Part shown: piece after piece, positions 13,244-27,201 of the stretch
How positions within the stretch are numbered: the first letter of the stretch is position 1
Layout of the letters: the number at the start of each line of letters is the position of its first letter
Source: a virus
Length of the DNA: 30,065 nucleotides
Virus record (IMG/VR): IMGVR_UViG_3300024257_000043
Location: 1 to 30,065 of that record
Strand: one strand, 5' to 3'
Made by a program: the position numbers and the translations under genes
The notes under the pieces: model-generated
Database searches by the model: none
What the model was told of the DNA's origin: nothing
What the model saw: the letters and a program-made list of their open reading frames with translations, nothing else

Positions 13244-13570
13244 ATGGCCAAAGCAAAAGAACAAAGCGTACAGTTGACTAACACTACAGAGCTGAAAAGC
13301 TGGACCAAACCTGAACTTGTAACTGCAGTAATTGAGTATGAAGACTTGCTCCTTGCACTTGAGAGTAAAATCTCAAGTGTGAAGGTGCCTGTAACAGGGC
13401 GCAAAGAACAAGTACTGAAAATCTTGAAGTCAGCTGGACACATAAGCGTCTCAGCTATTGCGACGCGCATTGGCATCAGCCAACGCAATGTGTCTTCGCA
13501 GATGACATACCTCCGCAAGGACGGTCATGCAATCGCGACCGACTCGCTCGGTCGTAAATTTCTTGAGTAA
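13244..13570 (+). CDS. Winged-helix DNA-binding protein (paralogue 1)
   Basis: A 108-residue protein. An N-terminal helical segment (about 12-45) precedes a winged helix-turn-helix at about 50-108: RKEQVLKILKSAGHISVSAI, then ATRIGISQRNVSSQMTYLR as recognition helix and KDGHAIATDSLGRKF as wing. The last 55 residues are nearly identical to the protein at 15095-15424, and the core is shared with those at 13918 and 23941. It probably regulates transcription. TAAGGAG precedes the ATG, and the leader shares CATCCGA...GATGTAAAACT with the one at 14363-14393. Confidence 0.75.
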   Translation: MAKAKEQSVQLTNTTELKSWTKPELVTAVIEYEDLLLALESKISSVKVPVTGRKEQVLKILKSAGHISVSAIATRIGISQRNVSSQMTYLRKDGHAIATDSLGRKFLE

Positions 13571-13910: not shown

Positions 13911-13917
13911 GATGATT

Positions 13918-14103
13918 ATGACTAACCCTAACCGATCTAAAGTTCTCAATGCTGTTCAAACATCAATCAAATCAAACGGTTATTACCGTAATGATATGAT
14001 TGCCAAACAACTCGGTATCCCTAAGCGTGAGGTAAGCAAGATGCTTACTTACCTTAGATGCGATAACGGCCACGACTTCACGCGGTATAGAATGAACCGC
14101 TAA
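13918..14103 (+). CDS. Small winged-helix-like protein (paralogue 2, divergent)
   Basis: A 61-residue protein, nearly all helix-turn-helix: RSKVLNAVQTSIKSNGYY, then MIAKQLGIPKREVSKMLTYLR. The spacing and the TYLR ending of the recognition helix match the proteins at 13244, 15095 and 23941, but it lacks their N-terminal segment and most of the wing. A DNA-binding role is likely. The start at 13918 has the normal gap to AAGGAG; the ATG at 13912 is too close. Confidence 0.6.
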   Translation: MTNPNRSKVLNAVQTSIKSNGYYRNDMIAKQLGIPKREVSKMLTYLRCDNGHDFTRYRMNR

Positions 14104-14153: not shown

Positions 14154-14160
14154 AATGACT

Positions 14161-14352
14161 ATGTCTAAACGTGTTAACATTTCAATGCCTGAAGAATTAT
14201 ATGCAGACGTTAAGAAATATAATCTTAATACTTCTAAAGTATGTCAAAAAGCTTTAGAGACTGCAATACGATTTGAGAAAGGTAAACGCCGACACCGTCA
14301 AAGCATGATTGATAATGCTCATCACATTATCAAAGCTTTACAGCGTGCTTAA
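14161..14352 (+). CDS. Ribbon-helix-helix DNA-binding protein, CcdA/CopG-like
   Basis: A 63-residue basic protein. KRVNISMPEELYADV (residues 3-17) forms the DNA-contacting beta strand and the first helix, and LNTSKVCQKALETAI the second helix, as in MetJ/Arc/CopG-type dimers and CcdA-like antitoxins. It should bind DNA as a dimer. No toxin-like partner is evident next to it, so a stand-alone regulator is more likely than an antitoxin. The ATG at 14161 has the proper gap to AAGGAG. Confidence 0.75.
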   Translation: MSKRVNISMPEELYADVKKYNLNTSKVCQKALETAIRFEKGKRRHRQSMIDNAHHIIKALQRA

Positions 14353-14928: not shown

Positions 14929-14967
14929 ATTTACTATCACCCGGCCCCGCTGGAGAGCTCGGCCAAG
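14929..14967. repeat. GC-rich dispersed repeat, copy B
   Basis: TTTACTATCA followed by CCGGCC and CTGGAGAGCTCGGCCAAG. It lies 18 bases before the CACCAA box of the next promoter. Confidence 0.65.
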
Positions 14968-14984
14968 CGCGATACCCAGTCCCA

Positions 14985-15032
14985 CACCAATTGCACCCGG
15001 CTATTTACTTCCCCGTGCTTTGGTGATATAAT
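14985..15032 (+). promoter_or_regulatory. Promoter with CACCAA-N29-TTGGTG operator, copy 1
   Basis: TTTACT (15004-15009), 17 bases, TATAAT (15027-15032). CACCAA (14985-14990) and TTGGTG (15020-15025) flank the -35 with exactly 29 bases between. It drives the winged-helix gene at 15095. Confidence 0.8.
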
Positions 15033-15094
15033 TATATTATAAAGAGTGAGGGAATAATCCTTCATTTAATAAATACCAAGCAAGGAGGTCCAAC

Positions 15095-15424
15095 ATGGCC
15101 AAAGAATTGATGAGTATGACCAAAGAAGAATTGGTGGCAATGATTGAAGCACAGTCAGTAGAGATCAACAAAGTGAAGGATGCAGCTGGTGGCCGGAAAC
15201 TTCAGGTATTGAAGATACTTCAGACTGGAGACCACACCACAGTGAAAGCCATCGCTGCAAGAATCGGTATCTCAGACAGGAATGTCTCATCTCAAATGAC
15301 GTACCTCCGCAAGGACGGATATGCCATCGCAACAGACAGTCTTGGCCGGAAGTTTCTTGAATCCACAGGTCAGGTGCATGAATCAGCTGGAGCCAAGGTT
15401 ATAACCAGAAAGAAAGCAGTATAA
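15095..15424 (+). CDS. Winged-helix DNA-binding protein (paralogue 3)
   Basis: A 109-residue protein. A short N-terminal helix (SMTKEELVAMIEAQSVEI) precedes the winged helix-turn-helix: RKLQVLKILQTGDHTTVKAI, then AARIGISDRNVSSQMTYLR, wing KDGYAIATDSLGRKFLES. This domain is almost identical to that of the 13244 gene, and a basic tail (ITRKKAV) follows. It lies directly behind a promoter with the inverted CACCAA/TTGGTG boxes, so autoregulation is plausible but unproven. AAGGAGG precedes the ATG, and a strong hairpin follows the stop. Confidence 0.75.
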   Translation: MAKELMSMTKEELVAMIEAQSVEINKVKDAAGGRKLQVLKILQTGDHTTVKAIAARIGISDRNVSSQMTYLRKDGYAIATDSLGRKFLESTGQVHESAGAKVITRKKAV

Positions 15425-15433
15425 CAAATAACC

Positions 15434-15460
15434 TGTGCGGTGAGTCTATCTCACCGCACA
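15434..15460 (+). terminator. Perfect 11-bp hairpin
   Basis: TGTGCGGTGAG, loop TCTAT, CTCACCGCACA, then ATTTAATC. The U-run is short, so it may attenuate transcription or protect the 3' end of the winged-helix message. Confidence 0.55.
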
Positions 15461-15482
15461 ATTTAATCAGGAGGAACTCAGT

Positions 15483-15611
15483 ATGGTTGATTATTATGAT
15501 GAGTACAGCGACGAAGAGTATGAGGATCTTGACATTGAATTCTTTGTACCCGACTCGCCAGGTAGACGGTGTAACTGTGAAGACGCACCGTGTTGTGGAT
15601 GCAATCAATAA
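15483..15611 (+). CDS. Very small Cys-rich, acidic protein
   Basis: A 42-residue protein, MVDYYDEYSDEEYEDLD at the start and CNCEDAPCCGCNQ at the end. The five clustered cysteines could bind a metal. AGGAGG and a conserved AACTCAGT precede the ATG, and the same leader recurs before the next gene. Similar Cys-rich small proteins are frequent in phages. Function unknown. Confidence 0.6.
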   Translation: MVDYYDEYSDEEYEDLDIEFFVPDSPGRRCNCEDAPCCGCNQ

Positions 15612-15626
15612 CGGGAGGAACTCAGT

Positions 15627-15815
15627 ATGGCCAAGAAGAGAGTCTTTAAAGAGCATATCGTCACGGCTGTGATCATCAATCACCAGCTGTATGTGATGGA
15701 CTTTGTTGAGCAGTATGAATCAGTAGAACATGCGATCTTTGCAAAGTTCGGCATCGACGCTGACAATGAAAATTATCACGTACTGTGGAGTGGTCCACGA
15801 TACCACATAGGTTAA
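15627..15815 (+). CDS. Small protein, unknown function
   Basis: A 62-residue alpha/beta protein, MAKKRVFKEHIVTAVIINHQ at the start. The GGGAGGAACTCAGT leader repeats that of the previous gene, suggesting a duplicated control segment. A strong terminator follows it, so it ends a transcription unit. No family recognised. Confidence 0.6.
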   Translation: MAKKRVFKEHIVTAVIINHQLYVMDFVEQYESVEHAIFAKFGIDADNENYHVLWSGPRYHIG

Positions 15816-15819
15816 CAGT

Positions 15820-15855
15820 AATGCCCGGGCATCTCAATGTGTCCGGGCATTTTTA
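15820..15855 (+). terminator. Rho-independent terminator
   Basis: ATGCCCGG (15821-15828) pairs with CCGGGCAT (15843-15850), extended inward by weaker pairs, followed by TTTTTATTT. It ends the unit that starts at the 15004 promoter. Confidence 0.85.
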
Positions 15856-15891
15856 TTTACTATCATCGGCGGGACTGGAGAGCTCGACCAA
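15855..15891. repeat. GC-rich dispersed repeat, copy C
   Basis: ATTTACTATCA, CGGC, then CTGGAGAGCTCGACCAAA, matching copies A and B. It abuts the terminator and opens the gene-free region. Confidence 0.6.
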
Positions 15892-16538
15892 ATAAGATCT
15901 GGATTCTAGAAAAATGAGCGACCGCTCATTGTGGCTACTTCATAGCTACATTTGCTCTAAGCTACTGATTTTACTACATATAACCAGAGGTAAAATCGAG
16001 CTAAATTTAGGTCTTTTTATATTCTATTAACTCTTTTTATCTAACTACTTGTTTTTATTATATATATTAATAAAATTGAAAGAATTAAGAGAAATATAAT
16101 ATAATAGAAATACAAGGTTGTAAAAGACCTGGGGTTATTGTATATATAGGCTACGGTGTATGTATTATTGATCCTTTTTACCCTTCTGTAGCTTAAAAGG
16201 ATAGAAAAGTTTTTATTGAAATTAGCTCATGCTCTTCAAAAAAGGACAGAATATCTAATAAAATCAGCTACTTAGAAAATAAGAGTCATTTTAAGCAAAA
16301 TGAGAATACCTAGTTATATCAGCTACTTAGAGACAAAGAATTACCGCGAGGCTCTTTGTAGACTACGCACTTTTTGAGAGAATACCTAATAAAATCAATA
16401 GCTTAGGCCCATTTTCTCGAAATATACACGAAATAAATTATCTAATAATATCAGCTACTTAAGTTTGAGCCGTCATTCATTTTTTATTAGCTCATTTAAC
16501 CTGAAATATTAACCCACAAACACACAAAGTGCGCTCAA
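15892..16538. other. Gene-free AT-rich region, candidate second control or origin region
   Basis: No plausible gene on either strand. It holds a long inverted repeat, AGGTCTTTT (16009-16017) with AAAAGACCT (16122-16130), an 8-bp hairpin (16171-16178 with 16195-16202), and four degenerate direct repeats listed separately. It ends at a conserved promoter. Origin or regulatory function is an inference from AT-richness and repeats. Confidence 0.5.
16249..16463. repeat. Four degenerate 27-28 base direct repeats
   Basis: Units at 16249-16276, 16304-16331, 16380-16407 and 16437-16463 share the form AATA(T/C)CTAATAAAATCAG then CTACTTAG. Spacings of 55, 76 and 57 bases are irregular, so they are not a CRISPR array. 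Confidence 0.65.
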
Positions 16539-16586
16539 CACCAATTATCTCTGGCTATTTACTTTCCAGCTCTTTGGTGATATAAT
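16539..16586 (+). promoter_or_regulatory. Promoter with CACCAA-N29-TTGGTG operator, copy 2
   Basis: CACCAA (16539-16544), TTTACT (16558-16563), TTGGTG (16574-16579) and TATAAT (16581-16586), with the same internal distances as copy 1. It drives the genes at 16642-17575. Confidence 0.8.
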
Positions 16587-16641
16587 TATATTATAGAAGT
16601 GAGAAGGAATTAAAAATCAACACTTAAGCAAGGAGTCCCGT

Positions 16642-16983
16642 ATGAGAGACACATTAACACTAGAGGCTATCCGTGAAGACTTAACCAGTGTGCGCAAGCT
16701 CATCAGAGTGCGCAAGCCAGAAACAAAAGAGTATGACTTAGACTACTACAACGCAAGAGACTTACTTATTAGGTTGAACAACAACTTATACACACTACCT
16801 ATCTCTGGTTGGCTAGAGAATGAAGGCACACTAGATATAGACATGGCACTAATTGATCTAATCTACTTCATCAACAACCACAAGCTCAAACAACTCAATG
16901 AAGCACTTTATCAAACTATTAATCTGGTTGACGCGATCAGCTACAGATGCGCAACACGATTTGACTCACTGACCGAGGTATAA
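16642..16983 (+). CDS. Small early protein, paralogue of 14436-14777
   Basis: A 113-residue helical protein with a basic N-terminal third (VRKLIRVRKPETKEYD). It aligns with the 14436 protein over the middle region: NLYT and LENEGTLDIDMALIDLIY. GCAAGGAG precedes the ATG. It is the first gene behind a conserved promoter. Function unknown. Confidence 0.65.
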   Translation: MRDTLTLEAIREDLTSVRKLIRVRKPETKEYDLDYYNARDLLIRLNNNLYTLPISGWLENEGTLDIDMALIDLIYFINNHKLKQLNEALYQTINLVDAISYRCATRFDSLTEV

Positions 16984-17023
16984 CAAAGTTAAAATTAACA
17001 CCAAAAGCAAGGAGGCCAACATC

Positions 17024-17356
17024 ATGGCACAGCATGATCCAAGACACCGCAACTCACTCCACAAGCTAAGTAACAATGAAGCATACCTTAACTTAGGGTT
17101 CATACCCATCACGACAGGCAGAGGCCAACAAGCTCTGTACATGGTAACTACGTTCGGCTCCTATTTCTGGTTAACAGACTTAAACGGCGACGCTCTGCCC
17201 AAGGACTCAGACAAACAACTCTCATTCTGCATGTACGATGGAGACACTAACGCACTGCTCTACTACAAAGACATTCCAAACTTAGTTACTAATGTCGTCA
17301 TGCACATCTCTCTGGCTGTTGATGACTACATACTTAAAACAAGGAGGCCAAACTAA
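17024..17356 (+). CDS. Hypothetical protein
   Basis: A 110-residue protein with alternating beta segments (ALYMVTTFGSYFWLTDL) and a basic C-terminal end. AAGGAGG lies 8 bases before the ATG, and its stop touches the next ATG. No family recognised. Confidence 0.6.
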   Translation: MAQHDPRHRNSLHKLSNNEAYLNLGFIPITTGRGQQALYMVTTFGSYFWLTDLNGDALPKDSDKQLSFCMYDGDTNALLYYKDIPNLVTNVVMHISLAVDDYILKTRRPN

Positions 17357-17575
17357 ATGATTAGCAACGCTGAATTATCACAAAGGCAAACTCTGCGTGA
17401 CCGTGGCGAAAGCCCTGACAAGTTAGACAAGGAGACGACTGAGGAGTTTCTGCAACGAGGTGGTAGGATTGCAAAGATTCCGAGGGGTATGAGTGGTGAG
17501 ACATTTAACGCGTTCCAATGCACGAAGGAGGCACATAAGGATGGCACAGTCAACGATCCAAAAGAAACAAAATAA
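17357..17575 (+). CDS. Small protein with RGGRI-IPRG motif
   Basis: A 72-residue, charged protein. Residues about 29-47 read EEFLQRGGRIAKIPRG, a pattern common in short uncharacterised phage proteins. AAGGAGG precedes the ATG, which directly follows the previous stop. Function unknown; a DNA- or RNA-binding role is possible from its basic motif. Confidence 0.6.
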   Translation: MISNAELSQRQTLRDRGESPDKLDKETTEEFLQRGGRIAKIPRGMSGETFNAFQCTKEAHKDGTVNDPKETK

Positions 17576-17604
17576 GAAATCTGTATTTTATTTTTCTCGG
17601 GGTA

Positions 17605-17633
17605 TTTACAAACCGGTCTTTTTATGTTATAAT
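17605..17633 (+). promoter_or_regulatory. Promoter of the primase-helicase gene
   Basis: TTTACA (17605-17610), 17 bases, TATAAT (17628-17633). It shares GTATTTACA with the conserved promoters but lacks the CACCAA and TTGGTG boxes, so it may be regulated differently. Confidence 0.7.
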
Positions 17634-17683
17634 AAGAAGATAGGGTAAAAGAGGATTAGTAAGACTCTCCTTGTTGTTGAGTG

Positions 17684-17723
17684 GTTGGAGAAACTTAGAA
17701 CTAGGCCACTAGGTTTCTCCAAC
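17684..17723 (+). promoter_or_regulatory. Stem-loop in the primase-helicase leader
   Basis: GTTGGAGAAAC (17684-17694) pairs perfectly with GTTTCTCCAAC (17713-17723). The loop holds CTAG-GCCA-CTAG, able to form a small inner stem. It lies in the roughly 140-base leader. Confidence 0.6.
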
Positions 17724-17779
17724 ATCCTAACCAACACTCGCAGCACCCACATATAACTCTACAACAACAGAGGATATTT

Positions 17780-20164
17780 ATGGCAACTACAGTACTACGT
17801 AAAGACGATCCACATTTACTAACACTCACACAACTCAACTTTAAGAAAATTCCCAACTCCCTTAAGCAGCATCCCTTCTGGATACTATGGCAACCTCGGC
17901 ATCAGCACAACTCTACAAAGATACTTAAGACCCCATTCGGTGGCAAAGCATGGCAGAAACAGATACAGTCCTGGGATGACATTGTGCCGCACTATGGCAA
18001 GCAACAAAAGAACATACCGACTGGACTGGGTTTCGTGTTCACCAAGGACCATCCATTTGTGTGCATCGACATTGACGACGTCACACCGACCAACTCAAGG
18101 ATGCAAAAAGAACTTGACTCATACACTGAGCGATCTCCTTCTCTCTTGGGTACGCATGTCTGGGTGCAGCTCTTCAGCATCAAGGACAAAGCGAAGTTAG
18201 AATCCTACTTCGGCACTAAACGATTTAATAAGACACACAAACGTGATTTGTTTATATCATCTGGCTATTGTACTATCACTGGGGGACATGTCAAGACTAC
18301 CCCGACTGATGTGCGCATTTACTCCTTTGAGGACTTAGTTGACATACTAGGCCAGTACTTCAATCAAAAGATTGTCTCCCTGGAAGAGCACCGTCAAGAA
18401 GCAGTTCAAACAAGCAAGGTACTATTCCCCCGCACCAAGCGACAAGCACCAATCTCTGCAGAACAAGCAAGACTCCTACTACGTAAAATCGACGTCCGCA
18501 CCTTGACATCTGACATATTCGACAACTTGACTCATCCTACAAGACTAGCGATCCTAAACCCAGATGAGACAGAAGAAGCGCGTGAACCATGGATGACAAT
18601 CTGTCAAGCAATTCATCATAACTTTGGTGGTGAGCCAGATGGTCTTCTACTTCTACATGAGTGGAGTAAGAAGGGTAACAAGTATGACAAAGAGGCACTC
18701 ATGTCGGTGTACGAGTCATTCTCTACGGCGCCAGAGTTTCTTAATCAACAAAAACCAATAACAATCGGTACACTCATTGCGCTGGTCAAAGCACAGAGAC
18801 CGGACTTCAACGATCTATCTCCGAAGGGAAAGCCTGTCTCCACAATTCAAAACTTAGAGGCGTACTTCAAGTTCTACAAGTATCATATGGCGTTTAACAT
18901 CGTCACACGTGAGGTAGACATAGCGATGCCTAAAGCCATAGTAACAACTCTGGCCGACAAGACTATTAGAATCTTTGATATAGACAGAGCATATCGTATC
19001 ATCGCGTCTGAGTTATTGAAGCTCGGTTTCGCGAATAAGAACTTTATAAATCTAAGAGAGTCAATTCTAGACTATGCTAAAGTAAACTCATATAATCCAA
19101 TAGAAAACTACTTTAATAAGATATATGCTGAATATGATGAAGCTCAAGATCCATTAGAGGATCTTATGAACACTATCACGTTCGACAATACGATACGGAC
19201 TAAGAATGCTCAAGCAGCGGTCAAGGTGTTCTTTAAGAAGTGGCTGACACAAGTTGTCGCGGCGGCGAATACCTCACAAACACACTCGACCAGGATATTC
19301 AACAACCTGATGATCTTGATCGGTGAACAGGGTGTAGGTAAGACTAAGTGGGTTGCTTCGCTCTTTCCAAAAGAGATTCAACAATTCTGTGCAGGTAGTG
19401 GCAACTTACAGATTAACCAATTTAGAACTGACAACGTGAAGCAAGCTATTGAGTTACAGCGCACGTTGATCTGCAACATCAATGAAGTAGACTTACTGTT
19501 CAAGGAAGGCTCGTACTCAAAGTTCAAGCAACTTCTGGATGAGACGACCAACTCGATGGTGTTACCTTATGGCAAGACTGCTGTGCAGATGACACGACGA
19601 ACAGTATTTATAGGTAGCACGAACAAGCGTCACTTCTTAGTAGATCAAACAGGTAACAGAAGGATAACTCTGGTCCATGTTGACGACATGAACTCAGAAC
19701 ATACTATGGACCTAGGGCAACTTTGGGCACATGCTGTGCACTGGTACCGTGAAGAAAAATGCTGGTGGCTTGACCCTAAGAATCCAGAAGATAAGGTGGC
19801 AATTGAGGTGCAAAACAAACTAAATATGCAAGGTATGTACATTGGTGATGACGGCTTGATGGAAGACTTAGATCACTACTTCAAGCTAGACGCTAAGTCA
19901 ATCCACTACAAGAAAGTAACATTTAAAGACATACGAATGCTGATGCCAAGTCTACATGGTGTAAAGCTCAACTCTAGGGCATTCAATGTAGCAAAGATGA
20001 CTTTTCATAACTGGCTAAATCAAACTAAGTTTGGCGAAGTTATGAAGAAGAAAAGTGGCGTTCGTGCCCAGCAATTCTATTTAGTTCCCCCTATCCGCGA
20101 AAAGAAACAAGCTGCATCATTCAAGCAAGCTGCACTACTAGATGAACTAGAATCTCTCGCCTAG
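17780..20164 (+). CDS. Primase-polymerase/helicase fusion
   Basis: A 794-residue replication protein. Residues about 25-185 form an archaeo-eukaryotic primase-polymerase-like domain: PFWILWQPR, metal-binding IDIDD (96-100), SPSLLGTHVW (119-128) and TITGGH (165-170). A PriCT-like segment (PWMTICQAIHHNFGG, about 270-310) follows. The C-terminal half is a VirE/D5-like superfamily 3-type ATPase with Walker A GEQGVGKT (515-522), CNINEVDLL as the probable Walker B-like region, and IGSTNKRHFL. It should prime and unwind phage DNA. The start ATG follows a leader with AGAGGA. Key acids and the Walker A are intact. Confidence 0.85.
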   Translation: MATTVLRKDDPHLLTLTQLNFKKIPNSLKQHPFWILWQPRHQHNSTKILKTPFGGKAWQKQIQSWDDIVPHYGKQQKNIPTGLGFVFTKDHPFVCIDIDDVTPTNSRMQKELDSYTERSPSLLGTHVWVQLFSIKDKAKLESYFGTKRFNKTHKRDLFISSGYCTITGGHVKTTPTDVRIYSFEDLVDILGQYFNQKIVSLEEHRQEAVQTSKVLFPRTKRQAPISAEQARLLLRKIDVRTLTSDIFDNLTHPTRLAILNPDETEEAREPWMTICQAIHHNFGGEPDGLLLLHEWSKKGNKYDKEALMSVYESFSTAPEFLNQQKPITIGTLIALVKAQRPDFNDLSPKGKPVSTIQNLEAYFKFYKYHMAFNIVTREVDIAMPKAIVTTLADKTIRIFDIDRAYRIIASELLKLGFANKNFINLRESILDYAKVNSYNPIENYFNKIYAEYDEAQDPLEDLMNTITFDNTIRTKNAQAAVKVFFKKWLTQVVAAANTSQTHSTRIFNNLMILIGEQGVGKTKWVASLFPKEIQQFCAGSGNLQINQFRTDNVKQAIELQRTLICNINEVDLLFKEGSYSKFKQLLDETTNSMVLPYGKTAVQMTRRTVFIGSTNKRHFLVDQTGNRRITLVHVDDMNSEHTMDLGQLWAHAVHWYREEKCWWLDPKNPEDKVAIEVQNKLNMQGMYIGDDGLMEDLDHYFKLDAKSIHYKKVTFKDIRMLMPSLHGVKLNSRAFNVAKMTFHNWLNQTKFGEVMKKKSGVRAQQFYLVPPIREKKQAASFKQAALLDELESLA

Positions 20165-20212
20165 CACCAATTCTCTCCAGCTATTTACAATTCAGTACTT
20201 TGGTGATATAAT
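20165..20212 (+). promoter_or_regulatory. Promoter with CACCAA-N29-TTGGTG operator, copy 3
   Basis: CACCAA (20165-20170), TTTACA (20184-20189), TTGGTG (20200-20205), TATAAT (20207-20212). It lies 1 base after the primase-helicase stop and drives the long run of overlapping small genes. Confidence 0.8.
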
Positions 20213-20267
20213 TATTTTATAAGTTGATGAAGGTAAAAACTTTAACTACAAAACGAGGAGGCTTAGT

Positions 20268-20477
20268 ATGATTAAATGGTTAGGTGAAACAGAATGTAAT
20301 GTATGCCACAAAGATGCTACAAAAGCCAAGTGGTTTGCTGATGCAAAGACCAAGTACGGTCCCTGGGCATTAGTATGTGACAAATGCTGTAAGAAGCACT
20401 GCATAGCTGTTGGACAGATGTATGATCCAAAGACAAAGGAAAAGATATGCGATTTAAAACAAGAACATATGTCGTAA
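20268..20477 (+). CDS. Small zinc-ribbon-like protein
   Basis: A 69-residue protein with C10-x2-C13 and C37-x2-C40 plus C41 and C45, able to hold one zinc ion. KYGPWALVCDKC and VGQMYD match a common small phage zinc-binding protein pattern. CGAGGAGG precedes the ATG. It is the first gene behind a conserved promoter. Function unknown. Confidence 0.7.
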   Translation: MIKWLGETECNVCHKDATKAKWFADAKTKYGPWALVCDKCCKKHCIAVGQMYDPKTKEKICDLKQEHMS

Positions 20478-20501
20478 ACACAAGAACTTACAGGAGGCCT
20501 A

Positions 20502-20648
20502 ATGTTAAGATTCTGGAAAGTCTGTCTGGTAATTCACTTCTGCTTATTAATAAGCTCCGCAAATGTCTATACAAGCTCGATCTTATTGGTCACATTCTTA
20601 ATTAGTGGCGTAGGCTACTACACAACAAAGGAGAGACTAGATGTCTAA
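20502..20648 (+). CDS. Small membrane protein
   Basis: A 48-residue protein, MLRFWKVCLVIHFCLLISS at the start, with hydrophobic stretches at about 7-18 and 26-40. They could form one long or two short membrane segments. AGGAGG lies 5 bases before the ATG, and the stop overlaps the next gene by 8 bases. No family; a holin role is not supported by anything nearby. Confidence 0.55.
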   Translation: MLRFWKVCLVIHFCLLISSANVYTSSILLVTFLISGVGYYTTKERLDV

Positions 20649-20844
20649 TGTAGAATACTTAGAAATAAGCGAACTTGTAAGTGAAAAAGGTTGGTACTTC
20701 TGGGATGAAACAGGAGACGCAATCGGACCATGGAAAAACAAGTGGGCTGCAGAAAAAGTTTTTTCAGCGTATATTTTTAATGTAATTGAAGGTCAAGACT
20801 TTCTTCATTTACATCTTGACAAATTCTTACAACTAAGTCGGTAA
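20641..20844 (+). CDS. Small protein, unknown function
   Basis: A 67-residue protein with WDETGDAIGPWKNKWAAEKV, reminiscent of a small phage alpha/beta family that carries a GPW-K-A pattern. AAAGGAG precedes the ATG, which lies inside the end of the previous gene. Function unknown. Confidence 0.6.
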   Translation: MSNVEYLEISELVSEKGWYFWDETGDAIGPWKNKWAAEKVFSAYIFNVIEGQDFLHLHLDKFLQLSR

Positions 20845-20857
20845 AGGAGAGATTAAC

Positions 20858-21328
20858 ATGACAAGCAAACCATTTTACTATGAACACATAGAGCTGGAAA
20901 AAAAAGCAGCCAAACGAACTTATGAAAATAGTCTTGCAGACATTACTAGTACCAGGGAAGACTTCTACAATGTTGTAAGAGATGTGGCTGAGGAACTTGA
21001 GTTGGTTGATTATAAATCTACTATAATGATTGGCTCATGGCCCAAACGAGCATACGTCAGTGTCAAGTTGAAGAAACACGATACTATCACCAATGGGGTC
21101 AATGAGGTTATAGATACTGTTGAAGAGATTCTTACACCACTTGACTTTAAGATGGACTTAGACTGCTCCAAACAACAAGAAGGTTACTATGAACTATACT
21201 ACAATAAAGGTGTGTTTGTAATTAACATATCTGTATTTATTGCGTCATCAGATAAGTGCAAAGCTAGACAAGTAGAAGTGACAAAGACTAATACAGAAAC
21301 AATCTATACATGTGAGGAGGTTGAATAA
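20858..21328 (+). CDS. Hypothetical protein
   Basis: A 156-residue acidic protein. An N-terminal helix (about 1-55, charged) is followed by an alpha/beta region. AAAGGAG lies 9 bases before the ATG. Its stop overlaps the next start by one base (TAATG). No family recognised. Confidence 0.6.
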   Translation: MTSKPFYYEHIELEKKAAKRTYENSLADITSTREDFYNVVRDVAEELELVDYKSTIMIGSWPKRAYVSVKLKKHDTITNGVNEVIDTVEEILTPLDFKMDLDCSKQQEGYYELYYNKGVFVINISVFIASSDKCKARQVEVTKTNTETIYTCEEVE

Positions 21329-21498
21329 TGTATTTCTATAAAAACAACTGGTACAAAAAGAACAAACAAGGTATGTGGATGATCGGGTGTTACGGCAACA
21401 CAAAGTCTAAGACTGCCAAGACATGGTTTAGGTATACAGGCCGATCAGACTTTATGAAAAAAGTGATGAAAGATGGAGACTGCCTTCATGAACTTTAA
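21328..21498 (+). CDS. Small basic protein
   Basis: A 56-residue, Lys-rich protein, MYFYKNNWYKKNKQGMW at the start. AGGAGG precedes the ATG, and translation is probably coupled to the previous gene. Its 3' end overlaps the next gene by 11 bases. Function unknown. Confidence 0.55.
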   Translation: MYFYKNNWYKKNKQGMWMIGCYGNTKSKTAKTWFRYTGRSDFMKKVMKDGDCLHEL

Positions 21499-21670
21499 TA
21501 CTTTTTTACTGATACTGATTCTGCTATGCATTTGTGTAGTAGCTAAAGGCTTAGATATATATAACGCAAATATCCAAGCTCAGTTAAACACGATACAGTA
21601 TCAAACTTCTGGTTGCTATCCGCATCCAACAGAGATACTTAAAGACGTGAAACTAAAGGAGAAGAACTAA
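21488..21670 (+). CDS. Small membrane-anchored protein
   Basis: A 60-residue protein with one strong hydrophobic segment (NTFLLILILLCICVVAKG, residues 4-21), a signal anchor with a soluble C-terminal part. The ATG at 21488 is chosen because GGAG lies 9 bases before it; the ATG at 21473 has no such site. An Rz-like spanin role is conceivable but not supported by neighbours. Confidence 0.55.
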   Translation: MNFNTFLLILILLCICVVAKGLDIYNANIQAQLNTIQYQTSGCYPHPTEILKDVKLKEKN

Positions 21671-21671
21671 T

Positions 21672-22001
21672 ATGAGACATCACTCAACACAACTACAAAT
21701 CTTTAAGGCCCAAACGTACTTACAGGAACATAGAGCTGAGCTTGAAGTAATGAAGCTCGCAGACGCCACAAGAGCAATCAACACTGCATGTGCCACAGCT
21801 GTGTCAGCGAATACAGTTAAGAACTGGTCTATTATGTTCAGCATCACATTCGCCAAGTCGTACAACAAAGGTATGAACAAAACAAACTGTCGTATCAAAA
21901 CTCTGGCCAACGCTATTGCAGAACTTTATGAGGACGTAGGTTCTAAACAGCATCCTGGAGTTGCAAAGATTCTTGAAGACTTGAATGGAGGCGACAAATG
22001 A
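21672..22001 (+). CDS. Hypothetical helical protein
   Basis: A 109-residue, mostly helical protein. The segment ATAVSANTVKNWSIMF looks weakly like a helix-turn-helix. AAAGGAG precedes the ATG, and the last bases overlap the next gene (ATGA). Function unknown. Confidence 0.6.
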   Translation: MRHHSTQLQIFKAQTYLQEHRAELEVMKLADATRAINTACATAVSANTVKNWSIMFSITFAKSYNKGMNKTNCRIKTLANAIAELYEDVGSKQHPGVAKILEDLNGGDK

Positions 22002-22186
22002 ATCCAGACATAATGAAACAAGCAGGCTTTGGTGAAGAATTAAAAGCTGTTAACATGGGTAAGTGTCCTGGCTGTCACGAAGATGTAGGGCCAAACGACT
22101 TCAGAGATACACTATCACGCAAGGAGTACTTTATCTCAGGACTCTGCCAACAATGCCAAGACAAAGTATTTGGAGGAGGTGAGTAA
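21998..22186 (+). CDS. Small zinc-ribbon protein
   Basis: A 62-residue protein with C23-x2-C26 and C50-x2-C53. KCPGCHEDVGPNDFRDTLSR and EYFISGLCQQCQDKVF match a widespread phage zinc-ribbon family. It overlaps both neighbours (ATGA and TAATG), so it is tightly coupled. Function unknown; these proteins are often near replication genes. Confidence 0.7.
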   Translation: MNPDIMKQAGFGEELKAVNMGKCPGCHEDVGPNDFRDTLSRKEYFISGLCQQCQDKVFGGGE

Positions 22187-22329
22187 TGAATACTGCTTTA
22201 TGGCAAAAATGGCTAAACGAAGATGTAGATGATCTTAAAGAGGCTTTACTATACTACGGTATAACTGGAATCCTGGCTCGCTTTGAAGATTGGTTAAAGT
22301 TTAACAAACACTTAATAAAGGAGGACTAA
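22186..22329 (+). CDS. Very small protein, unknown function
   Basis: A 47-residue, helical protein, MNTALWQKWLNEDVDDLKEA at the start. GGAGGTGAGTA precedes the ATG, and it shares one base with each neighbouring gene. This tight packing supports it as real. Function unknown. Confidence 0.55.
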   Translation: MNTALWQKWLNEDVDDLKEALLYYGITGILARFEDWLKFNKHLIKED

Positions 22330-23522
22330 TGCACAGTAAGTATTCACCCTCACAACTACCTAGGATCGTAACATGTCCAGGAAGTGTGATTAGTACAAAG
22401 GACGTATCAAAAGAGACTTCTTCATACGCTGAGGAAGGTACAATGCTGCATGCTGTAGTGGAAGAATGTTTGACTCTGAATGAGCACACAATACCAGAGG
22501 CCACGAAACTGAACTTCAACATCGCTGATGATGAGAGCAAGGAACTTGTTGAGGCAGTCCAAGAAGTACTAGACTGGGTTGTATCTCTACGACTGAAGTA
22601 CGCTGACTATGAAGATGCGTATGAAGTAGTAGAGCAGCGAGTGTACATGTCACCGTACATCAAGGCAACAGGTTGTCAGATGCTCAATGATGTACACGGC
22701 ACACTTGACTACTCCTTCATCATACCATCTGCAGGAGTTGTGTACATCGTAGACTGGAAATTTGGTAAAGGAGTAGAGGTGTGGCCAGACTCAGAGCAAC
22801 TATACGCCTATGCTCTTGGCAAGTTAGCGTCCGTGAAGTTCGAAGTCAAGAAAGTATTTCTGGTCATTGGACAACCAAGATTATATTCAGGTGAACTATT
22901 CAAGATTGTTGAAACTACACCTGAAGCACTTAAGTCTTGGTTAGTGTCATCCCTGGTTCCTGCACTGAACAACAGCATGTCTAAGCACCCAATCTATAAG
23001 CCAACAGAGAAGGCTTGTATGTGGTGCGCGATAAAACGTACATGTAAGTATCGTAAAGACATGGCGATGCAAGCTGCAGCAGATGTATTTAAGATTCACG
23101 CAAAGCTGCCTGACAAAACAGACGATGAAGAGTTATCAGACTTCTTATTCAAGCTACCTGACTTAAAGAAGTACATTAGCGACATTGAGTTATATGCTAT
23201 GAACATCTTAAGAGCAGGTCGTGACCTTCCTAAATGGAAACTTGTTGCAGGACGCAGCATTCGCAAATGGAAGGATGAAAAAGAAGCTAAGTTATTTTAT
23301 GCAAACTTGGAAGAGTATGATGCCGAAGACCTTACTATCACCAAGTTCAAGAGTCCTACACAGATTGAGAAACTGGTAGGGAAGAAAAATGTTACAGAAG
23401 AAATGCTGGCGTTAGTGGTTAAGCCACCTGGCAAGCCAACGCTAGTACGTGAGACTGATAAACGCCCCGCACTCGAGTTTGAGACAGCAGAAGATAAGTT
23501 CAAATCATATGTGGAAGATTAA
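22329..23522 (+). CDS. DUF2800 protein, Cas4/RecB-like nuclease
   Basis: A 397-residue protein. It carries a PD-(D/E)XK nuclease core: His41 in EEGTMLHAVVEEC, Asp127 in HGTLDY, Asp142-x-Lys144 in IVDWKFGKG, and EQLYAYALG. A likely iron-sulphur staple is formed by Cys16 (TCPGS) with Cys230, Cys233 and Cys239 (CMWCAIKRTC). This is the layout of Cas4 and AddB exonucleases. In phages DUF2800 genes sit with a DUF2815 DNA-binding protein and polymerase A, as here. It probably processes DNA ends in recombination or replication. AAGGAGG lies in the end of the previous gene. Confidence 0.85.
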   Translation: MHSKYSPSQLPRIVTCPGSVISTKDVSKETSSYAEEGTMLHAVVEECLTLNEHTIPEATKLNFNIADDESKELVEAVQEVLDWVVSLRLKYADYEDAYEVVEQRVYMSPYIKATGCQMLNDVHGTLDYSFIIPSAGVVYIVDWKFGKGVEVWPDSEQLYAYALGKLASVKFEVKKVFLVIGQPRLYSGELFKIVETTPEALKSWLVSSLVPALNNSMSKHPIYKPTEKACMWCAIKRTCKYRKDMAMQAAADVFKIHAKLPDKTDDEELSDFLFKLPDLKKYISDIELYAMNILRAGRDLPKWKLVAGRSIRKWKDEKEAKLFYANLEEYDAEDLTITKFKSPTQIEKLVGKKNVTEEMLALVVKPPGKPTLVRETDKRPALEFETAEDKFKSYVED

Positions 23523-23531
23523 GGAGGAGAT

Positions 23532-23807
23532 ATGCAAGGAGAAGGAAGTGCTAAAATGCCTAAAAAAACTATGCAAATACGTGAGCAGACTGACATACTT
23601 GAGAACAGCACTGCTACAATACTCGACCAAGTTAGTAACTTAGAAGGTCGGTTACAAGCCATACTGCTGCCGTCAGACTGTACTGCTGAAAATGACTCGC
23701 CAGAACCATGTCTTGTACCATTGGCTTATAAGATATGGCAAGTAAATGAAAACTTAGCACGAGTTATGACAAGACTGAGCTCGTTGACGGAAAGACTAGA
23801 GCTATGA
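23532..23807 (+). CDS. Small coiled-coil protein
   Basis: A 91-residue protein. Residues about 16-45 (QIREQTDILENSTATILDQV) and 65-91 have heptad-type hydrophobic spacing. AAGGAGG lies 4 bases before the ATG at 23532. It ends the long run of genes begun at the 20184 promoter. Function unknown. Confidence 0.55.
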   Translation: MQGEGSAKMPKKTMQIREQTDILENSTATILDQVSNLEGRLQAILLPSDCTAENDSPEPCLVPLAYKIWQVNENLARVMTRLSSLTERLEL

Positions 23808-23818
23808 TGTAGCTATAA

Positions 23819-23846
23819 AATTATTTTCTAAAAAGTGAAAATAATT
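23819..23846. repeat. 10-bp inverted repeat upstream of promoter
   Basis: AATTATTTTC pairs with GAAAATAATT around an 8-base loop. It ends 2 bases before the -35 at 23848. It could be an operator or a weak terminator of the preceding genes. Confidence 0.5.
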
Positions 23847-23847
23847 G

Positions 23848-23876
23848 TTTACTTTCCCGCACTTTGGTGCTATTAT
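23848..23876 (+). promoter_or_regulatory. Promoter with a half operator
   Basis: TTTACT (23848-23853), 17 bases, TATTAT (23871-23876). ACTTTGGTG lies at the same place as in the conserved promoters, but the left CACCAA is absent and an AT inverted repeat is found there instead. It drives the winged-helix gene at 23941. Confidence 0.7.
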
Positions 23877-23940
23877 AAAGATAATAAATGAATAAGAATA
23901 GTTCTTATTTTGCACTAAACAATTTAATTGGAGAAGAAGA

Positions 23941-24453
23941 ATGGCTGAAAAAATCAACAGAAGACAGCAGGTAATCGATGCAATCACAACAGGTGAAATG
24001 ACAAAGAAAGAGATCGCAGAGCAGATCGGTGTCAAAGAATCAGGCATCAGTTCACAGATGACGTACCTCAGATGGATGGGATACTTCATTATCTTTGATG
24101 ACGACAAAAAACTGTCCTTCACTGATGAAGCAGGATTCGCTGACTGGGAGGCTGATAAAAAAGCCAACCGTAAAACCAAATCTACCTCAACAAAGACACC
24201 AGCTGAACAGCACGCCACGTTGACCAAGACCATCGCCAACCAGGAAAAAGCAATGGCTAAGTTTGTTGACAAACAGACCTTGCTTGCTGACGAAGAAGAT
24301 GCAGATGAAGATACTGTCAATGAAGTGGATGCGAACATCACACTCCTGGATATCAAGATCAGGCGCAATGAAGCAAAACTCGACAACATTGATCTGAGTG
24401 ATGAACCTGACGCTGAGCCAGAACCTGACGACGAAGACGAAGAACTTCTTTAA
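23941..24453 (+). CDS. Winged-helix protein with acidic tail (paralogue 4)
   Basis: A 170-residue protein. The N-terminal winged helix-turn-helix (RRQQVIDAITTGEMTKKEIA, then EQIGVKESGISSQMTYLRWMGY) shares the SSQMTYLR recognition helix with the paralogues at 13244 and 15095. A Lys/Thr-rich linker, a coiled-coil-like region (about 80-150) and an acidic tail (DEPDAEPEPDDEDEELL) follow. The acidic tail could contact polymerase or other proteins, as an inference. GGAGAAG precedes the ATG, and the promoter upstream has the TTTGGTG half operator. Confidence 0.75.
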   Translation: MAEKINRRQQVIDAITTGEMTKKEIAEQIGVKESGISSQMTYLRWMGYFIIFDDDKKLSFTDEAGFADWEADKKANRKTKSTSTKTPAEQHATLTKTIANQEKAMAKFVDKQTLLADEEDADEDTVNEVDANITLLDIKIRRNEAKLDNIDLSDEPDAEPEPDDEDEELL

Positions 24454-24462
24454 CTGACACTC

Positions 24463-24484
24463 GAGGGGAGGTAACACTCTCCTC
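24463..24484 (+). terminator. Short hairpin after winged-helix gene
   Basis: GAGGGGAG pairs with CTCTCCTC (one G-U pair) around GTAACA, followed by ATTCAAC. No U-run, so at most an attenuator. Confidence 0.35.
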
Positions 24485-24508
24485 ATTCAACAATGAAAGG
24501 TTTTGCTT

Positions 24509-25183
24509 ATGGAAATAAAAGTGTACGACCAGATGACTATTGAGCTGATGCAACAGCCTAAGTATCCTGCTGAGATAATAGCCATTGCCTTGAACCTCAC
24601 AATGAAGTCAGACCCTACATTTGTACCAGCAAAGTTCACTGAGAAGCTCGGTAAGTTTCTATTGGATGCAGATCACACATCGCCACTAGAACATATCAAC
24701 TACACAATACTTATTCAAAATGTATCACGATCATTCCTTGCACAGATAACACGGCACCGCATGGGCTCCTTCACTTCTGCATCACAACATTATCAATACT
24801 ATGACGACTACCCAGTCATCATGGAGAAGTATAAAGAAGAGATGGAGTTTGCCTGTCAGACTGCGTTCACTATATATCGCAGCTTAGTTGACAAGGGTGT
24901 TAGAAAAGAAGAAGCTCGGCAAGTACTACCTAATGCTGCGGCTGTTAATCTACTCTGGACTGTGAATGCACGGTCATTGATTAACTTCTTTAGGCAACGA
25001 CTATGCCTGAGAAATGTTAAAGAGATGCGGATGTTTGCCCAACGGTTACTATCATTGGCTGAGCCCACCTTCCCTGAGCTCTTCAAACACGTCGGGCCGC
25101 AATGCTACGAAGGCAAGTGTAAGCAAGGTAAGATGAGCTGCGGCATTGGTCCTTGGGTTAAGTGGAATAAAAAGGAGAAGTAA
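24509..25183 (+). CDS. thyX: Flavin-dependent thymidylate synthase ThyX
   Basis: A 224-residue enzyme converting dUMP to dTMP with FAD and methylene-tetrahydrofolate. It has HTSPLEHINY (56-65), SRSFLAQITRHR and the signature RHRMGSFTSASQHY (82-95). The classical motif is RHRxxSxNxxSxR; here Asn is Thr and the last Arg is His, a variant seen in phage ThyX. NFFRQRLC and CYEGKC near the end fit the family. The start ATG at 24509 has AAAGG 8 bases before it. It is directly coupled to the NTP-pyrophosphatase gene, forming a dTMP supply pair. Confidence 0.9.
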   Translation: MEIKVYDQMTIELMQQPKYPAEIIAIALNLTMKSDPTFVPAKFTEKLGKFLLDADHTSPLEHINYTILIQNVSRSFLAQITRHRMGSFTSASQHYQYYDDYPVIMEKYKEEMEFACQTAFTIYRSLVDKGVRKEEARQVLPNAAAVNLLWTVNARSLINFFRQRLCLRNVKEMRMFAQRLLSLAEPTFPELFKHVGPQCYEGKCKQGKMSCGIGPWVKWNKKEK

Positions 25184-25527
25184 TGGAAGAAATACTTGTA
25201 CGAATATCTGAGTACCAAAAAGCTATGGGGTATGACTTTGAGAACATGACTCTGCAAGCTCGGATGCAGGCGTTTAGAAACTACGTATTTGCTTTAGCTG
25301 TTGAACAAGCCGAGCTTGCAACAGAGCTGCCAATTAAGCCCTGGAGACCATACAAAGATCAGCTGTACTCAGCTCCCGAAGTACTTGCTGAGGAGTGGGT
25401 AGACTGTCTGTTCTTTCTGGTCGATCAAGCCTTGGTTCTGCAGCTTCCACATGATGTGATTAGAAAAGCATTTGAAGACAAAATGACAAAAAATTATAAA
25501 CGTATAAAGGACGGCTATAATGGGTAG
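25183..25527 (+). CDS. MazG-like NTP pyrophosphatase (dUTPase-type)
   Basis: A 114-residue all-helical protein. The metal-binding pattern is E41-x2-E44 (AVEQAELATELPIKPW) and E71-x2-D74 (AEEWVDCLFFLVD), with FEDKMTKNYKR near the end, as in the MazG/dUTPase-2 superfamily. It likely hydrolyses a dNTP such as dUTP or dCTP to the monophosphate. Its ATG overlaps the thyX stop (TAATG), so making dUMP for ThyX is the probable role. Exact substrate is not fixed by the sequence. Confidence 0.75.
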   Translation: MEEILVRISEYQKAMGYDFENMTLQARMQAFRNYVFALAVEQAELATELPIKPWRPYKDQLYSAPEVLAEEWVDCLFFLVDQALVLQLPHDVIRKAFEDKMTKNYKRIKDGYNG

Positions 25528-25750
25528 CATGACTGACAAGCAGACCAAAGAAGTTGAGGGTCATATTAAAGATGCGTCCAGAGAAGAGTATAAGTGCAAG
25601 CTTACGATTTTGAAAGAGCAGTACTCTGTAATACTTGGTGAGAAAAGGCGGCACTTAGCTGACGCTGCGCATTGTGATAAAGGTTTAAATAATGTTGAAC
25701 TACGTTTAATCGAACTAGTGAAAGGAGGGCTTATGCATAACGGAAGATAA
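25520..25750 (+). CDS. Small charged protein
   Basis: A 76-residue, helical, charged protein beginning MGSMTDKQTKEVEGH. It overlaps the pyrophosphatase gene by 8 bases, and AAGGA lies 8 bases before the ATG. Residues about 25-70 may be a coiled coil. Function unknown. Confidence 0.5.
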   Translation: MGSMTDKQTKEVEGHIKDASREEYKCKLTILKEQYSVILGEKRRHLADAAHCDKGLNNVELRLIELVKGGLMHNGR

Positions 25751-25802
25751 GACCAAAACGGCAAACACGCAAAACTATTAAAACTTTAAACAGGAGAAAC
25801 AA

Positions 25803-26351
25803 ATGATCACAGGAGAAGTTATTATAAGCTACCCAGCTATCTGGGAGCCAAAAGCAAACCCAAGTGGTGCGATGAAATTTTCTTGCTCAGTTCTTATTGA
25901 TAAGAAAGACAAAGCCACAGTTAAAGACTTCCAAGACGCTATTGCCAAAGCCACTGCAAAGGGCAAAGGTTCTATTTGGAACAACAAAATACCAAACTTC
26001 AGGTACAAACCATTGAGAGACGGCGATGAAGAACTCGAGTCTGGTGAGAAGACAGACAAAGTGTACAAAGGTAAGTACTTCATCAACTGCTCCTCAAATG
26101 ACGCTCCAGGAGTTGTAGGTCCTGATGCTAAACCACTCATGGATCAAGATGAGCTATATGCAGGCTGTATTGTACGCCTCGATGTGAACCCGTTCCCGTA
26201 CAAAAACTCAGGTAACTCAGGGATTGGGTGGGGTCTAAATAATTTAATGCTTGTAAGAGAAGGCCCAAGACTCGACGGGCGACAAAGAGCTGTGGACGCG
26301 TTTGGCTCTTATGCGTCTAATGAAGTTAATGACGAAAATGATTTAATGTAG
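25803..26351 (+). CDS. DUF2815 single-stranded DNA-binding protein
   Basis: A 182-residue protein. SYPAIWEPKANPSGAMKFSC at the start, YFINCSSNDAPGVVG, then YAGCIVRLDVNPFPY and GWGLNNLMLVREG follow the pattern of DUF2815, an OB-fold single-strand DNA-binding family. The acidic tail (NEVNDENDLM) resembles those that recruit partner proteins in other single-strand binding proteins. It should coat exposed strands during replication alongside the polymerase and DUF2800 nuclease. CAGGAGA precedes the ATG, and a strong terminator follows. Confidence 0.85.
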   Translation: MITGEVIISYPAIWEPKANPSGAMKFSCSVLIDKKDKATVKDFQDAIAKATAKGKGSIWNNKIPNFRYKPLRDGDEELESGEKTDKVYKGKYFINCSSNDAPGVVGPDAKPLMDQDELYAGCIVRLDVNPFPYKNSGNSGIGWGLNNLMLVREGPRLDGRQRAVDAFGSYASNEVNDENDLM

Positions 26352-26357
26352 TACTAC

Positions 26358-26386
26358 GAAGGGGAGTGGCTGTTACACTCCCCTTC
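26358..26386 (+). terminator. Perfect 11-bp hairpin terminator
   Basis: GAAGGGGAGTG, loop GCTGTTA, CACTCCCCTTC, then AATTTAA. The run of T is short, but the stem is very stable and lies directly before a new promoter. Confidence 0.7.
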
Positions 26387-26397
26387 AATTTAACCAC

Positions 26398-26414
26398 GAA
26401 TATACACTTTTTAC
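26398..26414 (-). repeat. Inverted remote copy of the 12.4-kb repeat core
   Basis: The minus strand reads GTAAAAAGTGTATATTC, identical over 17 bases to the core of the fourth tandem repeat (12558-12574) and over 15 bases to the other three. It lies 6 bases before the CACCAA box of the next promoter. Confidence 0.75.
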
Positions 26415-26420
26415 GCTTAG

Positions 26421-26468
26421 CACCAATTAATTCCAGCTATTTACTTCTTGGTGTTTTGGTGATATAAT
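26421..26468 (+). promoter_or_regulatory. Promoter with CACCAA-N29-TTGGTG operator, copy 4
   Basis: CACCAA (26421-26426), TTTACT (26440-26445), TTGGTG (26456-26461), TATAAT (26463-26468). An extra TTGGTG lies at 26448-26453. It drives the nucleotidyltransferase-polymerase unit. Confidence 0.8.
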
Positions 26469-26523
26469 TATTATATAAGTGAAAGAAGTATCTTTCATAC
26501 AACACTTAACGAGGAGTGACACT

Positions 26524-27201
26524 ATGCATGAACTAAATCGCATCAACAAACAAATCTTTGACTTACAGGCCCATAAGCGTCAGATTAAAGAAGCAATCCA
26601 GGTCATTGATACAAGCAACATGACCAAGCAAGAGATCATCGACAAAGCCATGACACTGCCCGAGATACCAGAGCATCTCTGGGAAGCTATGCAAGACTTC
26701 GGTTTTCAGACAGGCTCCTCAGTATTTGGCAATATAAACACTCCATCAGATATTGACTGGGTCGTGAACCTCCCAGCCTATGCCTTCTATTATTCTGGTT
26801 GTGCCTTAACGTGTGGCAAAATACAGGCCAACTACATTGACGAAGGCAGCAAAGACTTTGTTCCGTTCTATGCAAACAAAGACGGTAAGCTATACAACAT
26901 CATCTGCATCGGAAGTTACTACAAGCTGGAAGCGTGGAAAGAAACCACAAGGATTATGACTGACTTATCTAACTATGACGCACTTAAAGACATCATGAAG
27001 ACTAAGTGGAAACGTGTCAGGTTGTTCAGAGCCTTGACTGACGTCTTTGAGCCTGTCAAACCGCTGTATCATCGTCTTGATATCGCAGAAGCTCATCAAT
27101 ATGACATATGCTGCAGCTGTGGTCGTGAAGCCGTGAACTTTACATGCAAGGCTGCCAAGGATCATTACAAGGCAACAGGTGTTTGTGAGAGGTGTGCATA
27201 A
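26524..27201 (+). CDS. Predicted nucleotidyltransferase with zinc-ribbon tail
   Basis: A 225-residue protein. Residues 61-82 read FQTGSSVFGN and then TPSDIDWVVNLP, fitting the nucleotidyltransferase signature hG[GS]-x(9-13)-Dh[DE]h with Gly64-Ser65 and Asp76-x-Asp78. A helical N-terminal region and an alpha/beta middle with YNIICIGSYYKLEAWK follow. The end carries C196-x2-C199 and C221-x2-C224, probably a zinc ribbon. It could transfer a nucleotide to a protein, RNA or small molecule; the substrate is unknown. The ATG at 26524 has GAGGAG 7 bases upstream; an in-frame ATG at 26479 is too close to the promoter. Confidence 0.7.
   Translation: MHELNRINKQIFDLQAHKRQIKEAIQVIDTSNMTKQEIIDKAMTLPEIPEHLWEAMQDFGFQTGSSVFGNINTPSDIDWVVNLPAYAFYYSGCALTCGKIQANYIDEGSKDFVPFYANKDGKLYNIICIGSYYKLEAWKETTRIMTDLSNYDALKDIMKTKWKRVRLFRALTDVFEPVKPLYHRLDIAEAHQYDICCSCGREAVNFTCKAAKDHYKATGVCERCA

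Follow-up and report, generated by a model that had tools for sequence, protein, structure and literature searches.

What is a pair of inverted hexamers, CACCAA and TTGGTG, laid over four promoters of one phage, for, and which protein reads it? The question is raised by a window of 30,065 nucleotides (nt) from the IMG/VR virus record IMGVR_UViG_3300024257_000043, the whole stretch of DNA analysed here, which comes from an uncultured tailed phage. We favour, at a probability of roughly 0.42, an operator that brackets the -35 element and would be bound by a phage winged-helix protein damping its own promoter together with the replication promoters. The transcription programme is known for few uncultured phages, and the conserved spacing of the boxes and their shift by one helical turn predict which genes switch together and by what type of regulator, the winged-helix family giving a short list of candidates. 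No publication treating this promoter set was recognised in the open-licence literature, judged by titles and abstract openings.

The paired boxes and the six promoters

Six promoters lie in the early/replication half of the phage, all on the plus strand:

P1, 14985..15032, plus strand: left box 14985-14990, -35 TTTACT 15004-15009, right box 15020-15025, -10 TATAAT 15027-15032
P2, 16539..16586, plus strand: left box 16539-16544, -35 16558-16563, right box 16574-16579, -10 16581-16586
P3, 17605..17633, plus strand: -35 TTTACA, TGn, -10 TATAAT, without either box; upstream of the primase/helicase gene 17780-20164
P4, 20165..20212, plus strand: left box 20165-20170, -35 TTTACA 20184-20189, right box 20200-20205, -10 20207-20212
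P5, 23848..23876, plus strand: -35 TTTACT, right box only 23864-23869, -10 TATTAT 23871-23876
P6, 26421..26468, plus strand: left box 26421-26426, -35 26440-26445, right box 26456-26461, -10 26463-26468

The window holds four exact copies of CACCAA-N29-TTGGTG, at 14985, 16539, 20165 and 26421, as the original prediction had it, and in 100 shuffles, with any gap of 24-34 bases allowed, the mean count was 0.03 and the largest 1, none reaching four. Every copy overlies a TTTACW-N17-TATAAT promoter, and the constant placing described earlier holds in all four, with the -35 (TTTACT or TTTACA) at 15004, 16558, 20184 and 26440, 13 nt beyond the end of the left box, and TATAAT at 15027, 16581, 20207 and 26463 after a 17-base spacer. 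The right box, which had been said to abut the -10, does adjoin it with a single base (A) between TTGGTG and TATAAT; to this we add that its TG doubles as the extended -10 element (TGn), which makes part of the right box ordinary promoter sequence. The dyad covers 41 base pairs (bp), its left half upstream of the -35 and its right half inside the spacer. That the promoters at 17605 and 23848 lack one or both boxes is also borne out, P5 having the right box only and P3 neither. The blocks CACCAATT, GCTATTTAC and TTTGGTGATATAATTAT do not vary between the four copies, while the stretches measured between and around them are 37-44% identical, and so a recent whole-block duplication as the source of the four copies is ruled out.

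Judged by their sequence P1 to P6 are strong sigma70-type promoters with an extended -10. All six have TGn straight before a near-consensus -10, a -35 (TTTACT or TTTACA) near TTGACA, a spacer of 17 and 9-11 of 12 matches over the two hexamers, and among the 44 promoter-like matches in 12100-30065 a TG precedes the -10 in seven, six of these being P1 to P6. We infer that they are early promoters read by the host polymerase, and the common pair suggests a single shared control over four promoters of the early/replication region. A matrix built on the four copies and run on two longer records of the same phage (G001 and G003) scored only P5 and P3 besides above the shuffled-sequence tops, and no further box pair was found in the longer records of this phage. 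P6 also holds an additional TTGGTG at 26448-26453, a DNA search with P6 gave one weak match only (E 0.4), and in P5 AAAAAGTG begins 18 nt upstream of the -35. A strong intrinsic-terminator-like hairpin with a T-rich tail at 15820-15851 would end the P1 unit.

Operators of the lambda Cro/CI type are compact, their half-sites being spaced by about one turn in a dyad of some 17 bp, and a control region has several of them. The proposal made here shares with them phage-coded regulator sites over the -35/-10 of early promoters, and autoregulation; in contrast the half-sites here lie 35 bp apart centre to centre, with one pair per promoter, which is no compact dyad. In the sections of PMC2988021 drawn on here, T4-type strong early promoters are built of UP, -35, TGn and -10, and the present promoters are like them in combining the host sigma70 -35, TGn and -10 in a phage set with extra consensus regions. 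They differ in that four copies share CACCAA/TTGGTG and GCTA, no inverted box pair being seen for T4 early promoters in those sections, and in lacking a uniformly A/T-rich stretch upstream of the left box. T4 middle promoters, in the same sections, have a MotA box centred at -30 that replaces the -35, and about half have TGn; a phage element at the -35 region with a sigma70 -10 is common to both sets, whereas here the -35 hexamer TTTACW is present in all six and is flanked by the boxes rather than replaced. Overall the promoters fall into the general class in which strong phage promoters combine -35, TGn and -10, and the proposed operator is neither of the Cro/CI nor of the MotA type.

The pair in related phages

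Relatives were gathered by scans with polymerase, DUF2800 and winged-helix alignments; G015 was analysed as 20,000 of 20,033 bases, and L030 and L031 begin downstream of P6. Across gaps of 0-60 bases in 13 related records the exact pair occurs once in G010 (gap 29), once in L209 (gap 28) and once in G011 (gap 42, away from any listed promoter), and it was not found in G014-G018, L129, L047, L048, L030 or L031. In G010 (62,969 bases) it stands behind the primase gene, at 35774 on the minus strand, where its right box follows immediately on the -35; the 29 bases are kept, yet measured from the promoter both boxes are displaced upstream by 10 bp compared with the window. In L209 it stands at 1059, before a winged-helix gene, with the left box 12 nt from the -35. 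The dyad straddles the -35 hexamer in the window, in L209 and in G010 alike. Because the pair is met again in relatives at 29 bases, shifted by 10 bp, or at 28 bases, it is very probably a real two-part site, and one whose place on the promoter can vary.

The reading of the pair as a unit and of its promoters as a shared regulon is thus supported by recurrence at promoters of two related records. The 'invariant geometry' of the original prediction is not, given the 10-bp shift in G010, the 12 rather than 13 nt in L209 and the equivalent promoters of relatives that carry no boxes. Conservation in related phages, on which that prediction had been made to depend, came out in part, the pair being kept in some records and absent at many equivalent promoters. 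L049/L129 (11.7 kilobases), with a polymerase 68% identical over 436 matched residues, has promoters at the places of P3, P4 and P5 without boxes. Single boxes are found elsewhere: G011 has two left boxes at the G010 position, one exact and one with one mismatch, G018 has one left box with one mismatch, G016 shows at the G010 position a right box that differs by one base, and a right box adjoining a -10, likewise one base off, is present in each of G010 and G011.

The counts were made on 30 promoters hand-picked after viewing folds, from 40 regular-expression matches of which 11 were dropped and to which G017:19133 was added; hairpins and left boxes were recounted on all 40 matches, and boxes and pairs on the 30 matches that come from relatives. 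The conclusions hold on the unselected matches, the one-mismatch single boxes being slightly weaker. With G015:18388 added to the hand list (31 promoters), it served for the AAAAAGTG count and for the winged-helix distance count below. At the 24 hand-listed promoters of eight related records there are six exact boxes (the one at -47 lying out of register), where 19 permuted hexamers average 0.47 with a maximum of 5, and two exact pairs, where none of the 19 gives any (gaps 26-32). All 30 matches give six exact boxes against a mean of 0.68 and a maximum of 5, two exact pairs against none, and 18 pairs with three mismatches against a mean of 6.2 and a maximum of 13. With at most one mismatch, CACCAATT has 10 matches upstream of the 40 promoter matches (nine records), nine at -29, -19 or -18 relative to the -35 and the tenth at -47; four of the nine in register are the window's own copies and so these are not nine independent events.

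Other IMG/VR matches of the pair with TATAAT (L009, L011, L012, L014-L016) were set aside as unrelated and without a TTTAC -35. The last scan returned 22 stretches, five being the window's phage, one G010, one G011 and 15 others; when these 15 were compared with the phage's 55 open reading frames (ORFs) of at least 100 amino acids (aa), only L260 showed a relative, one weak helicase-like match. In two of the 15, the unrelated viral contigs L244 and L259, a promoter-like TTTACT-N17-TATAAT is closely preceded by a compact dyad of the CACCAATTTGGTG or CACCAATTCGGTG type.

What may bind the boxes, and to what effect

Five small proteins of the window come into question as regulators:

13244..13570, plus strand: winged-helix protein A, short (HTH_11/HTH_24), candidate regulator
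13912..14103, plus strand: short winged-helix-like protein, a divergent paralogue
14155..14352, plus strand: ribbon-helix-helix protein (CcdA/RHH_5-like), alternative candidate regulator
15095..15424, plus strand: winged-helix protein B, short, first gene after P1, favoured candidate regulator
23941..24453, plus strand: winged-helix protein C, first gene after P5

The four winged-helix-like genes (13244, 13912, 15095, 23941) have a common core around VSSQMTYLR. Proteins A and B have HTH_11 and HTH_24 matches just above cut-off, and the predicted model of protein B is an H-H-H-H-E-E winged helix of moderate confidence (mean predicted local distance difference test score, pLDDT, 70.4). Foldseek with this model gave weak matches, the best at E 8.6e-3 and none at 0.001, the titles near the top naming winged-helix and MarR-like regulators, NolR and HlyU, and also methyltransferases. 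No membership of the named ArsR or MarR families was found, the NCBIfam ArsR/SmtB scores being 23.5 and 26.1 bits against a cut-off of 55, and a search of 50,697 phage records at E 0.01 matched nothing to protein B. Protein C has relatives in L129, L209, G010, G011, G015, G016 and G017. A hidden Markov model (HMM) for winged-helix ORFs finds 18 in the records examined, six of which had been used to build it. Twelve of the 18 begin 22-75 bp downstream of a listed promoter. In the control set of 589 ORFs with a length of at least 80 aa, in which these are counted, 32 do so, and this control is rough because it holds overlapping spurious ORFs. Winged-helix ORFs so close behind such promoters make autoregulation plausible.

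On the favoured reading a short winged-helix protein of the phage, itself expressed from this set of promoters, would occupy the two half-sites, as an oligomer or through two contacts, and cover the -35/spacer region. Once enough of it had accumulated its own promoter and the replication promoters would be damped, and P3 and P5, being short of one or both boxes, would escape the damping or come under other control. That one protein binds both boxes is probable; that this protein is a phage winged-helix protein stands at even odds; and the balance tips to repression over activation, given that the dyad brackets the -35 and a bound protein would compete with polymerase for the -35/spacer region. 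Looping between the boxes, put forward originally, is unlikely and was rejected, 29 bp seeming too short for free looping, and a bridging oligomer or two contacts appears more plausible.

Several observations weigh against this reading. The exact pair stands in just two of eight related records and at two of their 24 listed promoters, and L129 and G015 carry the same kind of promoter without it. On the 30 matches single boxes with one mismatch number 22 against a control mean of 14, a modest enrichment reached by two of 19 controls, and pairs with two mismatches number two, which four of 19 controls reach, so the pair is not special there. The box centres, 35 bp apart, are separated by about 3.3 turns, and therefore the halves face different sides, which is awkward for a simple bridge. 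Since winged-helix genes also lie behind promoters without boxes, there is no fixed tie between the protein family and the CACCAA box, and no particular winged-helix paralogue is linked to that box. The 10-bp step in position could, finally, mean a contact with polymerase, favouring activation.

It is this last point that sustains the best of the alternatives, a rather unlikely one, in which a protein at the left box (about -54 or -64) makes contact with RNA polymerase and thereby assists a weak -35 (TTTACT), the promoters then being delayed early ones that fire after the first regulator is made. The left box lies about one helical turn apart between promoters (-29 versus -19/-18), as contact from one face predicts, and the -35 is TTTACT or TTTACA, not TTGACA. 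The AAAAAGTG boxes, 10 matches with at most one mismatch upstream of 31 promoters (permutations mean 2.4, maximum 6), keep mostly to similar steps, eight of them at -29, -29, -28, -18, -18, -8, -8 and -8, with -34 and -32 off phase. However the right box in the window overlaps the spacer and the extended -10, where a protein would more likely block sigma, and box-less promoters (P3 and many in relatives) have a similar -35/-10, and so extra help is seemingly unneeded.

It is doubtful that the two boxes are unrelated, the right one being an enlarged extended -10 (TTTGGTGnTATAAT), the left one an independent element further upstream, and the equal spacing coming from promoter geometry and shared descent of the copies. 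P5 with the right box alone, G011 with the left box alone and the TG that belongs to TGn in any case would all suit such a view. What speaks against it is that the two boxes are inverted copies of one hexamer, and that in G010 the right box adjoins the -35 and not the -10 with the left box shifted along and the 29 bases kept.

A host protein as the binder is improbable, although the related phages may share a host: CACCAA-N28/29-TTGGTG-N-TATAAT, sought in 84,980 genomes (one per species), gave 28 stretches with one match each and none with TTTAC at the -35, and therefore no host regulon of this exact shape is seen among the species of that collection. Ribbon-helix-helix proteins often bind short repeats cooperatively, and the one encoded here matches CcdA (E 3.8e-8), but it makes an equally improbable binder, having no relative at E 1e-3 in the eight compared records (some of them fragments), the box-bearing ones included, and a gene that is not directly behind any promoter of the set.

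The favoured operator can be placed within a broader scheme, itself a tentative one that we would not lean on. A wide two-part operator, inverted hexamers 29 bp apart, would bracket the -35, move by one helical turn as a unit and be read by multiplied small winged-helix proteins; other promoters would carry AAAAAGTG at nearly the same helical positions, and many transcripts would share 5' hairpins. This would amount to a plug-in code in which the type of box varies and the docking position is fixed.

Transcript starts, other repeats and the phage

Short hairpins are predicted at the start of transcripts from 14 of the 40 promoter matches, against 0.6 (standard deviation 0.7, maximum 3) in shuffles keeping base composition only, where a hairpin is a stem scoring at least 9 that begins within 12 nt of the assumed start. 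Counts at offsets of 20-70 nt are 3, 0, 0, 0, 0 and 1. The folding z against dinucleotide shuffles averages only -0.94 over the 40, many being near or above zero, and so the signal is confined to part of the promoter set. In the window the predicted structures are:

P1 5' hairpin, 15044..15067, plus strand: predicted, 10-bp stem, 4-nt loop, +1 assumed at 15039; z -2.07
P3 leader long hairpin, 17684..17723, plus strand: predicted; 141-nt leader z -3.99
P5 5' hairpin, possible, 23890..23910, plus strand: 9-bp stem, not the minimum-energy fold of 63 nt; z -0.18
P6 5' hairpin, 26479..26498, plus strand: predicted, 8-bp stem, 4-nt loop; z -2.35

Folding gave no clear 5' hairpin for P2 and P4, and by eye L049 has a hairpin similar to that of the P3 leader at the same place. 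The predicted stems start 3-12 nt past the assumed transcription start and cluster there (about 7 nt after the -10), which agrees indirectly with that start. Their sequences vary between promoters with the pairing kept, also in G010, G015, G018 and L209, and this speaks for an RNA structure rather than a DNA operator. Messenger RNA can be stabilised by hairpins at or close to its 5' end (PMC3997798), the T4 gene 32 leader being an example described in PMC8948821. Set beside what the sections of these sources drawn on here describe, the present hairpins are alike in being short and, counted from the assumed start, near the transcript 5' end, and unlike in being predicted from sequence and in recurring, with stems that vary, at many promoters within one phage family. 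If real, they would be a sequence-only marker of transcript starts in this family.

Other repeats surround the promoters. A box GTGTAAAAAGTGTATATT occurs four times in 12348-12614, 63-67 bp apart, near an A/T-rich stretch; AAAAAGTGTATATT occurs once, reversed, just upstream of P6 (26399-26414); and AAAAGTGTATATT is found in three intergenic stretches of L049 (1286, 6143, 9277) and at L047 540, upstream of genes or promoters. These boxes may be origin iterons or a second operator. Three 68-nt intercistronic units in 13585-14167 (82-93% identical to the first) precede three different small genes, each with an GCGCTGCTC-AATAAC-GAGCAGCGC hairpin and then the same ribosome-binding region. Upstream of P2, at 16245-16462 and within 700 bases without an ORF of 50 aa, lies a 31-nt repeat in four copies (ATCAGCTACTTAG in three), whose core is similar to CAGCTATTTAC at two promoters, and pieces of ATTTACTATCA and GAGAGCTCGRCCAA are repeated around the P1 unit (14806-14828, 14929-14966, 15850-15891).

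The left part of the window encodes capsid, P22-like portal and terminase-like genes on the minus strand, and the right part VapE/PriCT-2 primase-helicase, DUF2800, Thy1, Enc34-type single-stranded DNA-binding protein and DNA polymerase A on the plus strand. The polymerase alignment found no relatives in bacterial genomes, and Rfam gave no match at the gathering threshold. The phage recurs in the longer records G003 (56,719 bases), G001 (131,274) and G002 (31,321), 99.9-100% identical to the window across long common stretches, and its size is about 57 kilobases. At 8471-18298 of G003 (L042) lies a minus-strand protein of 3,275 aa, for which neither Pfam nor PHROGs gave a match at E 0.001 and which has counterparts in G010, G011 and G018. 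From about 57,000 to 131,274 in G001 a different tailed phage, with other head, tail and polymerase genes, is apparently joined on, the junction lying at similar sequence near a lectin-domain gene, and G001 is perhaps an assembly chimera.

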